This document shows, in pieces, positions 58,306-64,000 of a stretch of DNA of 64,000 bases. A program made the translations under genes and the position numbers. Source of the DNA: Psychroflexus salarius (GTDB taxonomy: Bacteria > Bacteroidota > Bacteroidia > Flavobacteriales > Flavobacteriaceae); assembly GCF_900129035.1 (NCBI RefSeq), contig NZ_FQTW01000010.1, forward strand, positions 1 through 64,000, read 5' to 3'. The notes beneath the pieces were generated by a model that saw only the letters and a list, made by a program, of their open reading frames with translations, searched no databases and was not told the DNA's origin. The first letter of the stretch is position 1. Each line of letters starts with the position of its first letter.

Positions 58306-60062
58306 GTAATGGCCATTTTCTTCATTAAAAATGAAGCATTCATATTTTGGCAAACGCCAGGTTTTAGTTGATAATCAAAATTAAGTTCATCGTCTAAAAT
58401 TTCAGCGTCGAAATGATAGTTAAACAAGCTTGTATTTTCTTCAGCTAAATCGCATAAGCTAATATCGTGAGTTGCTATAATACCAACACTTGAGGTTTGG
58501 TTTAACTTCTGAATAAATTTCTGAGAACCTTCAGCTTTATCTTTAGAATTAGTACCCTTTAAGATTTCATCTAAAATAATAAAGTAAGCTTGGTCTTTTA
58601 TTGTATCGATAATAAATTTCAATCGAGATAATTCGGCATAAAAATAAGAAGATTCATCTTGAAGAGAATCGGCTGTTCGCATACTTGTAATTACCGGAAT
58701 GGGTTTGTAAATAGCATGGCTAGCACTTACTGGCAAGCCTAAATTAGACATAACAATTTGTAAACCAACAGTTCTTAAAAAGGTGCTTTTACCTGCCATA
58801 TTTGCTCCTGTAACAATCCAAAAATGATGGTTATGAAGCTCAAAACTATTGGTAACTGCTTCATTTTTTGGTATTAAAGGATGAACAGCGTCTTTAGATT
58901 TTAAAATAGTATGACCTGTTTCTGTTAATTGTGGGTAAGTATAATGAGGATGATTATAAGCAAAGTTAGCTAAGCTATTATAAGCGTCAAAATTGCTAAT
59001 ACTTGTTAACCACTGCTCTACCTTATAGCCATGACTTTTTATCCAGCCTTCTAATTTATAACCGTAACGTAAGTCCCACAATAAAAACGCATTTAAAACA
59101 ACGCCTAACAACATATTATTTCGCTGTTCAAAACCATCAACCATTTTATTAAATTGACCTATTAAGTCTGAAACATTTTGCTGCTCTGATGCTACATTAG
59201 ATTGAAAATGCTTCAGTAAATCTGCATTAAAACTTTCGTTTTCAATTAAATGTACCACATTTTGCTGGTTGGCAAAATAAGTTTGAATTTGATTGATTTG
59301 AGATGAAAATGCGCTGACCTTTTTTACGTAAAGACCTGTAATAACTAAACCAATTAATGCCCACAAACCAAACTGACTCAACTTTATGTAATCTAAGAAA
59401 TAAGCTGCTGTAACTAGAATTGAAAGCACTGCAAATACATTTGGTAACCATCGCATCAATTTTGGAATAAATGCTGTATGATTTTTAAAAAAATTAACAA
59501 TCGCATGGTTTGAAACCTCTTGTTGAACTGCATCAGCTTCTGCCGTGAATTGTTGCCTAAATTCAATTTTTTTTGCTAGATCTTTAATGGCCGCTTGTTT
59601 TTCAGAAATATCACAATAGTCATTACTTAAAATTAAGTCTGCCAATTTACTTTCACCTTCATTGGTTGCTGTTCGGTTTATAAATTGAAAAAAACTGCGA
59701 TCACCAAACATATCTAAATCGGCACTAAAAACATGCTGATCATCTTTGTAAACTTCACCATTTTTAAACATTGAAACATCGCCGTTAAGCGCTTTTAATT
59801 CATTTTCATTAATTGTAATTAAGCGCTTAACAATGGTTTTTTTATGCTTTATATTTTGATGCCTTGAAACCAATACCACAAAAGCAATAATACTTAACAA
59901 TAAGGTCGCTACCATAAATTTTACTTCACCCCAAAACCAAAATAAGGCGGCGATTGTCAGCAAAAAGACAGCAATACGAATAAGGCTAGATTGTAATAGC
60001 TTTTTATTTAAATGACGCTGTGTCTTTAAATGCTGATTTATATGGTTTTTGTAGATATTCAT
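58302..60062 (-). CDS. Membrane-anchored MutS-like ATPase
   Basis: The 586-aa protein has two pairs of membrane helices (about 27-66 and 205-247) and a C-terminal MutS ATPase domain with Walker A GANMAGKST (419-427), a Q-loop-like SMRTADSLQDESSYFYAEL, Walker B LDEILKGTN and the ATHD signature. A core-like segment (TATNEGESKLADLI) lies near 131. It lacks the mismatch-binding N-terminal domain and the Smr domain of MutS2. What a membrane MutS ATPase does is not known to me. It diverges from the LuxR gene with 31 bp between them. Confidence 0.88.
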   Translation of the reverse strand: MNIYKNHINQHLKTQRHLNKKLLQSSLIRIAVFLLTIAALFWFWGEVKFMVATLLLSIIAFVVLVSRHQNIKHKKTIVKRLITINENELKALNGDVSMFKNGEVYKDDQHVFSADLDMFGDRSFFQFINRTATNEGESKLADLILSNDYCDISEKQAAIKDLAKKIEFRQQFTAEADAVQQEVSNHAIVNFFKNHTAFIPKLMRWLPNVFAVLSILVTAAYFLDYIKLSQFGLWALIGLVITGLYVKKVSAFSSQINQIQTYFANQQNVVHLIENESFNADLLKHFQSNVASEQQNVSDLIGQFNKMVDGFEQRNNMLLGVVLNAFLLWDLRYGYKLEGWIKSHGYKVEQWLTSISNFDAYNSLANFAYNHPHYTYPQLTETGHTILKSKDAVHPLIPKNEAVTNSFELHNHHFWIVTGANMAGKSTFLRTVGLQIVMSNLGLPVSASHAIYKPIPVITSMRTADSLQDESSYFYAELSRLKFIIDTIKDQAYFIILDEILKGTNSKDKAEGSQKFIQKLNQTSSVGIIATHDISLCDLAEENTSLFNYHFDAEILDDELNFDYQLKPGVCQNMNASFLMKKMAIT

Positions 60063-60093
60063 AGGTTTAAATATTTTTTCAAAAATAGCCGAA

Positions 60094-60888
60094 TTGAAAA
60101 GGTTTTACTTATTTTTATTGTATAAATCTAAAAGTTTGGATGAATATAAAACCTACTTAAGTTTACTAAAAGAAAAATCTCAAGTCAATGACGCTGAAAT
60201 CAAAGCCTTGATTGAAGAGTATAAAGCAACTGAAAGGTTTAGTATTGCTTCAAAAACCTTATTCTATATCCTCAACCTCAACACACAGCATTATGAATTC
60301 ATCAATAAACATGCATATAATTTAACAGGTGTAAATCCAGAAGATTTTAAGGAGAATGGAACCAAAATATTACCAGAAATTATCTATTATTCAGACTATA
60401 AATTATTGGTCAACCAAGTGTTTCCAAAATTGCAAAACTGTTTTTTAGAACTTAATGAAGCGCAGCAAAAAAGCGCTGTGTTTGAACTTTACTATAGATT
60501 TATAAATAAAGTTTCAAACAGTCTAGAACCTGTTGTTGAATACAGCTCTTATGCAGCTTTCGATAAAAGCTTCAAACCTAAAATTTCAACTGGAATTATA
60601 TTAAAATCTAGCCATAAATACCAAGGTGTAAGAGGAATTTTACGTGCTAAGAAAGATGGTGAGATGAAAGATTTATGCGACCATAGAACTTCTTTAGAAA
60701 AAGAGCAATTAAGTAAACGTCAAATTGAAATTATTGAGCTAGTATGTCAAGGCTACACAAAATCTGAAGTTGCCGATAAATTACACCTTGCCAAAGGCAC
60801 CATTCACTCTCACGTTAAAAACATTTACCATAAATTAAACCTCAAAAATCAAGCTGAATTATTTCAATTTAAAGATAATTACCTCTAA
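60094..60888 (+). CDS. PAS-LuxR transcriptional regulator (TTG start)
   Basis: The 264-aa protein has a PAS-like sensor (about 45-170; FYILNLNTQHYEFINKHAYNLTGVNPEDF) and a C-terminal LuxR/FixJ helix-turn-helix (about 205-262; LSKRQIEIIELVCQGYTKSEVADKL, GTIHSHVKNIYHKL). The TTG at 60094 is the only start near the first helix. No phospho-receiver is present, so it is a one-component regulator sensing a small ligand. The inverted repeat behind it (60967-61010) could be its operator or terminator. Confidence 0.85.
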   Translation: MKRFYLFLLYKSKSLDEYKTYLSLLKEKSQVNDAEIKALIEEYKATERFSIASKTLFYILNLNTQHYEFINKHAYNLTGVNPEDFKENGTKILPEIIYYSDYKLLVNQVFPKLQNCFLELNEAQQKSAVFELYYRFINKVSNSLEPVVEYSSYAAFDKSFKPKISTGIILKSSHKYQGVRGILRAKKDGEMKDLCDHRTSLEKEQLSKRQIEIIELVCQGYTKSEVADKLHLAKGTIHSHVKNIYHKLNLKNQAELFQFKDNYL

Positions 60889-60966
60889 AAATTACCACTA
60901 TTGTGGTATTGTATGTGAAGCCCAATACGCTTAGATTTGATAAATATTACCAATTTATTATTTAAT

Positions 60967-61010
60967 AATCGGGTGTAAATTTCATGAGGGCTAATTATTT
61001 ACACCCGATT
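60967..61010. promoter_or_regulatory. 14-bp inverted repeat upstream of the lipoprotein gene
   Basis: AATCGGGTGTAAAT (60967-60980) and ATTTACACCCGATT (60997-61010) are perfect complements with a 16-bp spacer. It ends 15 bp before the ATG at 61025 and is not followed by a U-run, so it is more likely an operator or translational hairpin than a terminator. A smaller one, TACCAC-N4-GTGGTA, lies at 60893-60908. Confidence 0.5.
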
Positions 61011-61024
61011 TAAATATGTGTATT

Positions 61025-62467
61025 ATGAATAAACTGAGCTATTTATTATTTGCTTTATTAGGTGTAAGCTGCCAAACAGAATCTCAAAACTATTGGTCAA
61101 GATATCATGACGAACCAGTAAAAACAGAGACTATACGTTCAACTACAAAAGACTTTGAACCAACAAATCAATTTCAAACCAAAGTCTCCTATTACCCCAA
61201 TGGTTTAATTAAAAGTGAATTCAGTCAAGATCAATATCGAGAAACGAGTCGATATTTTATTTATAAAAGCGACACTTTACATTCTATACTTAGCAAAATT
61301 AAGTCTAATGACATGGTTAACTATGAATTAGAAGAAGTCTTGGCCACGTATAAAAATATTTTCCCGTTAAAAACCAATTATCTGAAGGAATACAATCCTT
61401 ACACTGGAGAAAATAAAGCCAAACTTAATACTAGAACCTACTCTTATACTAAAGACAATAGTATTAAGCAAATCCTTACAACTGAAGACCAAGATAATGA
61501 CAAGTACTTTACAGATTATAAAATAAACTATAAGAAAGGTCATATTTCTTCTTCTAAATTTAAAATGTACAAAACAAGACATTCAGCAGATACAGTTGTA
61601 GAATTTGAAGAAGTCTCTGATTATAAATACATCAAACAATCTAAAGCTGGTCCAAAAAACTACATCCGAATAACACAAAATGACACTTTTTACCTTAATA
61701 GTGACTACACATTATTTCCTAAACAAGTGCTCAAAAATCCAGAAGTCAATTACATCAAATTAGAAGGTATCCTAAGCTATTATCTAGACGATTTACATAA
61801 CAAAGCTATTTCTGAAGAAACCTATTCTATCGTTAATAACAAGATTAAAAAATTAAATACCAATAATGATTCGAGCCTTATAAGTCCTCGTGCCTTAAAA
61901 TCTCAAAACTGGTTTATACAACGATTTTACACAAACTATATCGATTGGCTTATTGAAGAGAATAACTTCTCGAAATTTTACAGTGTTTTTGATGATGTTA
62001 ATGAGCAATCACGATTTTTTGATGCAAAAGACTTAGATCAACTTAGATTTACAGCCTTCTCTGTTGCTAGAAAGGATAACAGATACAACTTAGCTAAAAC
62101 CTATTTTGAGCCTATTTACAAGGAGACTACAAAAAAAGAAAAACTAAGATTTGAAGATATGTACGTCATAGCTCTAATGGCCCAAACCAAAGCTAATTTA
62201 GATGAAAAAAATGAGGCAATAGGAGATTTAAATATCATTAAAAGCTTTAAGAAAGAACAATCATCATTAGTAGAAGATTATAAACGAGAACTTGATTTAT
62301 TAATTGCAGGAATTCAATATGAACTCGGTAACATAAAGTTGGCTAAAGCCATTGTAACTGATAATATTGAGTATTATTCACCAAAAGAAGGTGAAGATGA
62401 GTTTAGCATTAATTATGAAGCCTTAATGAAAAATGAAAGGCTACTTGAAAAAATAAACAATCAATAA
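61025..62467 (+). CDS. Lipoprotein of unknown function
   Basis: The 480-aa protein starts at the ATG at 61025; an upstream in-frame ATG at 61016 is three codons earlier. The lipobox is GVSC (Cys16). A polar Tyr/Lys-rich segment (about 20-250) follows, then helical repeats resembling TPR (about 290-450: ARKDNRYNLAKTYFEPIY, MAQTKANLDEKNEAIGDL). I do not recognise the family. It follows the PAS-LuxR regulator and may be its target. Confidence 0.65.
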   Translation: MNKLSYLLFALLGVSCQTESQNYWSRYHDEPVKTETIRSTTKDFEPTNQFQTKVSYYPNGLIKSEFSQDQYRETSRYFIYKSDTLHSILSKIKSNDMVNYELEEVLATYKNIFPLKTNYLKEYNPYTGENKAKLNTRTYSYTKDNSIKQILTTEDQDNDKYFTDYKINYKKGHISSSKFKMYKTRHSADTVVEFEEVSDYKYIKQSKAGPKNYIRITQNDTFYLNSDYTLFPKQVLKNPEVNYIKLEGILSYYLDDLHNKAISEETYSIVNNKIKKLNTNNDSSLISPRALKSQNWFIQRFYTNYIDWLIEENNFSKFYSVFDDVNEQSRFFDAKDLDQLRFTAFSVARKDNRYNLAKTYFEPIYKETTKKEKLRFEDMYVIALMAQTKANLDEKNEAIGDLNIIKSFKKEQSSLVEDYKRELDLLIAGIQYELGNIKLAKAIVTDNIEYYSPKEGEDEFSINYEALMKNERLLEKINNQ

Positions 62468-62835
62468 TTCTCTTTCAACAGCTCGCGCTTCTTCTTAGGC
62501 AACTTACTTACTACTAAATCGTAACTATGATTAATCAAATGCTTGATGAGACGGTCAGTTAAAGATGTGTCTTGAATTTTAACCGTGTTCCAATGTTTTT
62601 TATGCATGTGATAACCTGGTAACACATGCTCTGGATATTTAGCTCTTAACTCTTGTGCATATTCTGGATCACACTTTACATTCACAGAAAAGTCTTCTTG
62701 CTCCCACTTTTTAAGTGAAGCTAAAGCAAACATTTTACCCATCACTTTAAATACTAATGTATCTTCATCGAATGGAAATTCTTCTGTTGAAGATGCCTTT
62801 GCCAAGCAAAACAATCTTAATTCTTCTATATTCAT
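62461..62835 (-). CDS. MmcQ/YjbR family DNA-binding-fold protein
   Basis: The protein is 124 aa from the ATG at 62835. The longer frame to 62880 is rejected because it would run through the terminator of the neighbouring gene. Landmarks are EEFPFDEDTLVFKVMGKMFAL, VNVKCDPEYAQELR, and PGYHMHKKHWNTV. The MmcQ/YjbR fold resembles CyaY-like double-wing domains; function is unresolved. A TATATTTG box at 62850-62843 fits its promoter, overlapping the neighbouring terminator. Confidence 0.88.
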   Translation of the reverse strand: MNIEELRLFCLAKASSTEEFPFDEDTLVFKVMGKMFALASLKKWEQEDFSVNVKCDPEYAQELRAKYPEHVLPGYHMHKKHWNTVKIQDTSLTDRLIKHLINHSYDLVVSKLPKKKRELLKENY

Positions 62836-62849
62836 TATAAACCAAATAT

Positions 62850-62877
62850 AAAAAAACCTGCCAATTAAGGCAGGTTT
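62850..62877 (-). terminator. Terminator of the small membrane protein gene
   Basis: AAACCTGCC (62854-62862) pairs with GGCAGGTTT (62869-62877); on the minus strand a T-run follows. It immediately precedes the -7 box of the MmcQ/YjbR gene. Confidence 0.8.
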
Positions 62878-62883
62878 CACACA

Positions 62884-63108
62884 CTAGAAAATCATGGTTA
62901 TTAAGATTTTAGTAATTATATAAACAATAAGCACTGATACAACTAATCGTGTTTCTTTAGACCATAATTTATGTTTCCACATTAAATAAACTCCTAACGG
63001 AAACAATAAAATTAAGAATACAGCTATTACTGTTGGCTGGCGTAACCACTTTTTTTTAGAATTATAGTATGCTTTTAAATATTCTCGATTCATAAAATCA
63101 TTAAACAT
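62884..63108 (-). CDS. Small membrane protein, 74 aa
   Basis: The protein has a basic N-terminus (1-22, with YYNSKKKWLRQP) and two hydrophobic helices (about 26-43 and 53-73) joined by a short basic loop (KHKLWSKETR). I do not recognise a family. A strong terminator directly follows its stop, which supports it as a real gene. Confidence 0.55.
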   Translation of the reverse strand: MFNDFMNREYLKAYYNSKKKWLRQPTVIAVFLILLFPLGVYLMWKHKLWSKETRLVVSVLIVYIITKILITMIF

Positions 63109-63136
63109 ATAAATTTATGACTTTATCTTTTAAAAG

Positions 63137-63168
63137 AATAGGGGAAACCGTATGTCTCCCCTATTTTT
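63137..63168 (+). terminator. Orphan hairpin with U-run
   Basis: AATAGGGGA (63137-63145) pairs with TCCCCTATT (63157-63165) followed by TTT on the plus strand. No plus-strand gene is seen upstream, so it may end a small RNA or lie in the leader of the gene at 63108. Confidence 0.45.
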
Positions 63169-63375
63169 AAAGACCAACAAAACAAATACAAAATACTGTT
63201 GAACAGTAATTTATAGCCTTAAAAATCAATTTTAAAGACTATCATCAACATATGATGATTTAAGCTATTTTCCCGTATTTTTCGTCTATTTTTAAAGTTT
63301 GAAATTTATATTTATTACTAACTAGAATCCATAAAATCTTAAATTTTAAGCTAATTGTATGAAGTTATTTTTTTA
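63169..63375. other. AT-rich intergenic region
   Basis: I see no gene or clear promoter here, only a weak inverted repeat ATCATCA-N5-TGATGAT near 63241. Confidence 0.4.
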
Positions 63376-63573
63376 AAAAGCTCTTGAGCTTGGAACGAAA
63401 AGCTCTTGAGCTTGGAACGAAAAGCTCTTGAGCTTGGAACGAAAAGCTCTTGAGCTTGGAACGAAAAGCTCTTGAGCTTGGAACGAAAAGCTCTTGAGCT
63501 TGGAACGAAAAGCTCTTGAGCTTGGAACGAAAAGCTCTTGAGCTTGGAACGAAAAGCTCTTGAGCTTGGAACG
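63376..63573. repeat. Nine tandem copies of a 22-bp palindromic unit
   Basis: The unit AAAAGCTCTTGAGCTTGGAACG-type sequence (first copy 63376-63397) repeats nine times without a mismatch. Each unit contains the inverted repeat AAGCTC-TT-GAGCTT. The period of 22 bp is close to two helical turns. The array lies directly behind the terminator of the minus-strand cargo gene. The minus-strand open frame at 63365-63607 across it is an artefact. Confidence 0.95.
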
Positions 63574-63602
63574 AAAAAACGCCTTGCTTATGCAAGGCGT
63601 TT
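63574..63602 (-). terminator. Terminator of the type IX cargo gene
   Basis: AAACGCCTTGC (63577-63587) pairs perfectly over 11 bp with GCAAGGCGTTT (63592-63602), loop TTAT; on the minus strand TTTTTT follows. Confidence 0.9.
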
Positions 63603-63658
63603 AACAATTGGCTAGGTAGAAAACCTACGAATTTGGATGAAGTTAGTTAATCCTCTAC

Positions 63659-64000
63659 TTAACGCTTAATAAAGCGTTTAGTGATTCTAGTATTGTTTTT
63701 AGTCGTGATTTGTATAAAGTAATTTCCTGCAGCTAAATCTGAAACATCTATTTGTATCGGTGCTACACTACCTGATAATTCTAGCTGTTTGACTTTTTGA
63801 CCTAGCATGTTGTATAGACTTACCGCTTTTACGTCTGCATTAGCATTACTTGTTAAGGTTACTTGATGCGTAGCAGGGTTTGGGTAGAGCTTAATCGCTA
63901 ATTGTGCTTCCGTTGGATTATCTATAGATAAGCTTTCACACTCTGCTCCCCAATTAGGTTCAAAGCTCTCTTCTAATGGAGAGTTGGTAGAAAAACTACT
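63659..64000 (-). CDS. Type IX secreted protein, C-terminal end (partial)
   Basis: Only the last 113 codons are in the window; the gene continues past the right edge. The end is a type A sorting domain: LAIKLYPNPATHQVTL, then VKAVSLYNMLGQKVKQL, IDVSDLAAGNYFIQI and final RFIKR, stop at 63659. PorV would carry this domain and PorU would remove it. What precedes it (ECESLSIDNPTE) does not reveal the passenger function. Confidence 0.9.
   Translation of the reverse strand, partial: SSFSTNSPLEESFEPNWGAECESLSIDNPTEAQLAIKLYPNPATHQVTLTSNANADVKAVSLYNMLGQKVKQLELSGSVAPIQIDVSDLAAGNYFIQITTKNNTRITKRFIKR

Follow-up and report, generated by a model that had tools for sequence, protein, structure and literature searches.

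The window, a 64,000-nucleotide stretch of Psychroflexus salarius DNA, contains near its end the 3' part of a type IX cargo gene, an intrinsic terminator and, behind the terminator, nine exact copies of AAAAGCTCTTGAGCTTGGAACG that follow one another head to tail (Table 1). The cargo protein is 1014 amino acids long, and its gene extends past the window to about 66703. Nine perfect 22-bp repeats behind a type IX cargo gene were what the sequence-only reading had described, and both parts of the description were borne out: the units tile the interval exactly, and the protein carries a T9SS sorting tail. TRF placed the row at 63376-63577, with a period of 22, 9.2 copies, a 100% match and a score of 404, and found two other tandem rows in the window, each of two copies (scores 54 and 50). 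When the unit was searched for with up to three mismatches, nine matches were obtained in the window, all of them exact, and none in 100 shuffles. Because the copies abut without spacers, a CRISPR array was ruled out.

Table 1. Positions of the features discussed in the text. Coordinates are those of the window unless a locus (L) is named.
Feature	Position	Strand	Remarks
MmcQ/YjbR-like protein (presumed)	62461..62835	-	conserved flank of the variable island
74-aa small protein	62884..63108	-	downstream of the array; no Pfam family; within the variable island
Array of nine 22-bp units	63376..63573	.	AAGCTC-TT-GAGCTT in every unit; AAAA at 63574-63577 prolongs the period
Intrinsic terminator of the cargo gene	63577..63602	-	11-bp stem; T-tract runs into the array; -17.5 kcal/mol, z -6.58
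Cargo gene, 3' end	63659..64000	-	PARCEL/DUF285 repeats, Ig-like domains, T9SS sorting tail
Upstream ATGTACA arrays	L106:17230-17332 (P. salarius C18); L122:18379-18520 (G020); L211; L212		before HU-HIG genes
Orphan ATGTACA array	L120:2499-2599 = L230:5500-5600 (P. salarius C33); L257:217-292 (G020)		beside a presumed serS-like gene; 22-bp period
Copied groups of HU-HIG gene plus array	L177/L179; L180/L183; L181/L182; L192/L193; L194/L210/L217		

The units had been called palindromic, which is correct for part of their length: a 6-2-6 inverted repeat takes up 14 of the 22 bp in each unit and leaves an 8-bp remainder, but its central TT is not self-complementary. The small hairpin that had been proposed for each unit does fold, but weakly (-3.7 and -3.2 kcal/mol, z -0.88 and -1.05, for one unit as RNA). 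As RNA, both strands of the whole array folded better than shuffles, with a z of about -7.5; this value is exaggerated, since the copies of any tandem palindrome pair with one another. An RNA-level element, in which tandem mini-hairpins aid the terminator or shield transcript ends, would agree with this folding of both strands and with the position of the array directly behind a strong terminator. We regard such an element as improbable, because single units fold weakly, the folding score of the whole is raised by copy-to-copy pairing, the array is situated past the terminator, and hairpins would need no fixed 22-bp phase with diverged spacers such as the sister arrays described below show. 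A comparison of positions 60000-64000 with Rfam gave four matches, none of which reached the gathering score. The minus strand of the array is stop-free in all frames, and an 80-aa ORF starting from TTG (63365-63607) overlaps the terminator; this ORF over the array is probably incidental.

The count of nine copies is that of a single draft assembly of 47 contigs, and 198 bp of perfect repeat are hard for short reads, which speaks for an assembly artefact, at least for the copy number. An artefact is nonetheless very improbable, since unique sequence flanks the array within an 81-kb contig and the palindrome is common to arrays of other genomes.

The neighbourhood of the array is variable. The closest relative noticed, genome G020, shares 88.4% DNA identity over 10.4 kb, and its interval between the mmcQ-like gene and a gene that we take to be hemW-like is occupied by other genes, a different type IX cargo gene among them. 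Together with the 74-aa protein, the cargo gene and the gene that follows it, the array is therefore part of a variable island, which extends over contig positions 62884 to roughly 68400, between these two flanking genes. The mmcQ-like gene product was found in 26 of the 27 genus genomes, and the 74-aa protein in one, P. salarius. Sequence matches agree with Psychroflexus as the genus, loci from three of its genomes being identical over 1.2 kb to records of P. montanilacus, P. gondwanensis and P. longus. In 25 other genomes, the mmcQ-like loci had no comparable array; the rows seen there included a 21-bp row of 2.1 copies (L042) and rows of 14, 25 and 28 bp (L045). Horizontal spread has been reported for PARCEL-repeat surface proteins, and Psychroflexus torquis is among the species listed (PMC2996958). 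The PARCEL repeat in the cargo gene is a coding repeat (PMC2996958), distinct from the array.

A search of the whole P. salarius genome, as the sequence-only reading had suggested, returned the unit at 63376-63573 and nowhere else. The other 26 genus genomes held three isolated single matches at up to three mismatches, and a tandem palindrome, also at up to three mismatches, occurred in P. salarius alone among 397 family genomes. The exact 27-bp tandem was found in no stretch of genome_contigs, from which the records of the same or very near genomes are possibly excluded, and the exact unit was absent from viral contigs; phage relatives of the array were limited to chance-level matches. When the array itself was used for a DNA search of the 397 family genomes, 339 gave some match at E<=1. 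Most of the matches listed fell on AT-rich edges or on the terminator hairpin. Two rows among them that were followed spanned more than one unit: one in G300, at a locus with an HU-HIG gene (PF18291; L142), and one in G428, with a period of 24-27 and no HU-HIG gene noticed. A loose single-site pattern gave, among the matches listed, many hits with one or two mismatches in 27 genomes, which are uninformative on arrays, and, within the same listed matches, exceeded the reversed control in almost every genome (60 versus 19 in P. salarius). At the type IX loci of P. salarius, 30 of 41 of which were read, 22-bp arrays exceeding four copies occurred at this locus and at L079, where the array belongs to an adjoining HU-HIG gene; L062 had a 21-bp row of 2.1 copies. 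Although the exact unit was indeed absent elsewhere in the collections searched, its motif and its spacing recur, and the absence of the exact unit therefore does not refute a binding array.

Plasmids were covered by a search of 72,556 records, in which the array matched 21 at chance level (best E 0.8). Iterons typically consist of exact tandem repeats about 22 bp long, and the array could accordingly be a set of iteron-like sites for a plasmid replication protein, either a relic of an integrated plasmid or an incompatibility decoy. With no relative in these records, and no replication gene noticed among the nearby ORFs (five proteins were run against Pfam), this origin is extremely improbable.

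Arrays of nearly the same period were found beside HU-HIG genes, which encode HU-like DNA-binding proteins. A sample of 400 kb from P. salarius and 400 kb from G020 contained, besides other tandem repeats, five degenerate arrays with a period of 21-22 bp (L106, L119, L120, L122 and L136), four of which are adjoined by an HU-HIG gene. A sixth 21-bp row, in L136, was rejected because it is really a 7-bp repeat taken three at a time. The two samples and the window together (864 kb) were scanned by lag for stretches of at least 60% identity, with those of low complexity dropped. Lag 22 gave five, of which this array is one, and lag 21 gave two, versus none at lags 16, 17, 19, 20, 23, 25, 26, 28 and 29. 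All five HU-HIG genes of P. salarius and G020 had a 21-22-bp array no more than about 120 bp away, in contrast to none of the four ordinary HU genes, the two kinds being split by score (at least 64 bits versus at most 45 bits). Genus-wide, TRF detected a 21-22-bp array at 13 of 20 HU-HIG loci (12 of 20 if L200, with 1.9 copies, is left out) versus 0 of 14 ordinary HU loci (Fisher 8e-5 for 13 of 20). In a second set of 20 loci, taken by protein similarity from genome_contigs and having three genes in common with the first, an array was again present at 13, lying downstream in 12 and upstream only in one (L184); rows of fewer than two copies were dropped from this tally, and L191, the same gene as L200, was thus scored as lacking. 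In either set, seven of the 20 HU-HIG loci had no 21-22-bp array.

Autocorrelation, which is free of the TRF thresholds, was used to find the best lag between 12 and 40 in the 300 bp downstream of each gene. The 41 HU-HIG loci reduced to 23 non-redundant ones, of which 22 had enough sequence and 21 remained without L142, the locus found through this array. The best downstream lag was 22 at 12 and 21 at four of these 21 loci, whereas for 96 flanks of type IX or mmcQ-like genes, used as controls, it was 22 in three and 21 in ten; the controls exclude L058 (this locus), L079 (HU-HIG neighbour) and loci under 2.9 kb. Upstream of the HU-HIG genes, the best lag was 22 at five and 21 at three of 23 loci, and a group of upstream arrays (L165, L166, L211 and L212) shared a 22-bp period and the core ATGTACA.

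The palindrome recurred at the same spacing. We searched for pairs of near-matches to the 14-bp palindrome, with at most four mismatches each and at most six in all. In 56 kb of flanks of the 41 HU-HIG genes, lag 22 yielded nine such pairs at three loci: L168 of G020 and L185 of Profundicola chukchiensis, both found independently of this array, and L142 of G300, found through it. In a background of 940 kb from P. salarius and G020, lag 22 picked out only this array and L136 (the same locus as L168); three pairs turned up at the remaining lags between 15 and 29, one of which fell at L136. In a column-permutation test, palindromy stood out (at most 25 of 500 permutations) in 10 of 23 array consensuses; this array gave 31 of 500. 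The layout was checked at 15 HU-HIG loci whose array lies downstream, several of them close copies of each other. A simple script located an intrinsic terminator ending 47-63 bp past the stop codon at 14 of the 15 and none at L185, and the best-scoring array window started 17-128 bp past the stop. Behind the cargo gene, the terminator spans 57-82 bp past the stop and the array starts at 86 bp. The order of gene, terminator and array is the same here as in the usual HU-HIG layout, with a different gene.

With its period, an inverted-repeat core in common with an HU-HIG array and its site behind a terminator, the array very probably belongs to an HU-HIG-linked class of arrays, which is defined in this analysis. 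We call it an orphan rather than a paired array, because no HU-HIG gene lies within a few hundred bp. A scan of 79,000 of the 81,419 bases of the contig for an HU-HIG gene or its remnants found none (best E 4.2), and homology between the flanks of the array and HU-HIG loci was at chance level. The search for HU-HIG genes in P. salarius likewise placed no match on this contig; the genome has two such genes, both on other contigs, C21 and C18. An order-wide pattern search found four further places, in two of 394 other genomes (G516 and G706), and no HU-HIG gene was present within the 3.6-19 kb read around them. In G706, several distinct 22-bp array types stand side by side in intergenic DNA (L244, L245 and L246), and these contigs of 3.6-8.8 kb contain no HU-HIG gene.

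The association also has its bounds. No clear array was seen at the eight HU-HIG loci of Bacteroidales plasmids that were read, out of 13 records with a relative. Weak rows occurred at L250 (20-bp, 2.4 copies), at L255 (best lag 22, at only 0.44) and at L248 and L253 (two-copy 22-bp rows over 500 bp away from the gene). The HU-family genes of these plasmids (L248-L254) often adjoin amidase/peptidase, DUF4248 or smalltalk genes. The array motif could not be predicted from protein identity: the arrays of L168 and L174 differ although the proteins are 73% identical, whereas the HU-HIG protein of L142 is 33% identical, yet has a similar array. A search of the open-licence PMC literature found no paper on such arrays.

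Sister arrays show how members of the class change. The array on contig C33 of P. salarius lies away from any HU-HIG gene, beside a gene presumed to be serS-like, yet its core is ATGTACA, as in the group of HU-HIG arrays that lie upstream. G020 has retained this array, and its version and that of P. salarius are set apart by a single 22-bp gap. Between the upstream HU-HIG arrays of these genomes there are gaps of 22 and 23 bp, and the sequence on either side is conserved. An orphan of the class can therefore stay conserved, and arrays of the class change unit by unit. That our array is itself a variable-number locus, as had been proposed, is suggested by analogy with two sister arrays that differ in whole units between P. 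salarius and G020. HU-HIG gene and array region have also been copied together within genomes, in five groups from four genomes (G010, Mesonia sp. 4-133 with two groups, Mesonia ba4b1049 and Tenacibaculum sp. M341). The duplicated blocks measure about 1.0-2.1 kb and are 87-96% identical; in Mesonia sp. HuA40, the shared block ends ahead of the array. In this, gene and array resemble a cassette that moves or recombines, with no visible transposase.

Whole-unit variation of sister arrays would equally be expected of a neutral minisatellite, in which slippage or recombination amplified a 22-bp stretch that is functionless whatever its seed. The perfect identity of the copies, their restriction to one locus in one genome and the variable island around them are consistent with this explanation. 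We consider it rather unlikely, given that the period and core palindrome are common to HU-HIG arrays elsewhere, with no third place in 940 kb, and that one orphan array has been kept in two genomes.

We favor the reading that the array is probably an orphan, recently amplified member of a helically phased, operator-like, HU-HIG-linked class of the Flavobacteriales. Three roles had been offered for it. A protein-binding array is the best supported of them, in that the palindrome recurs in degenerate form at an exact 22-bp phase beside HU-HIG genes and lag 22 stands out in the 864 kb; a supercoil buffer received no specific support, and the variable-number locus was discussed above. A dimeric DNA-binding protein, most simply one of the HU-HIG family, would occupy each palindrome. 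The sites are 22 bp apart, about two helical turns, and the dimers and their bends would therefore all lie on one face. Dimers phased in this way would bend the DNA in one direction, giving a compact nucleoprotein block. Behind the cargo gene, such a block might support the terminator as a roadblock or insulator, an effect that we put forward tentatively; beside HU-HIG genes, the array may also regulate those genes. For an HU-HIG protein as the candidate binder of this array, we put the chances at about even, and the possible partner could be the product of either HU-HIG gene of P. salarius or of a lost or incoming one. The nine identical copies would have arisen by recent amplification of units.

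HU proteins are commonly described as DNA benders that are largely sequence-neutral. It is conceivable, though doubtful, that the HU-HIG proteins of Flavobacteriales are sequence-specific HU relatives, each with a private array of palindromes at 22-bp phase, gene and array being spread as copied cassettes of 1-2 kb, and that orphan arrays such as this one are distal targets or decoys, possibly silencing or insulating acquired genes such as those of this island. If the HU-HIG proteins, as a large HU-like family of Bacteroidota, do have private, helically phased palindromic arrays, these would offer direct candidate sites for proteins of unclear role, and the nine perfect copies would serve as a natural high-affinity probe.

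Among known systems, the HU-HIG-paired arrays L168 of G020 and L185 of Profundicola chukchiensis are like this array in the period of 22, the inverted repeat AAGCTCTTGnnCTT and the terminator position. In contrast to them, this array has no HU-HIG neighbor and consists of nine copies, all perfect, instead of about four or five. The HU-HIG clade of the HU/IHF superfamily (PF18291, TIGR01201), whose genes adjoin the sister arrays and which we propose as the putative binder, is a protein family and not a class of arrays; the clades of HU/IHF are reportedly the subject of a 2017 paper. Plasmid iterons and partition-site arrays are likewise tandem, helically phased inverted repeats, but here no plasmid relative was found, and no replication or partition gene was noticed nearby. 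VNTRs and minisatellites likewise consist of perfect tandem copies, and the sister arrays change by whole units, as they do; the array at this locus differs from them in that its period and core are common to different genera.
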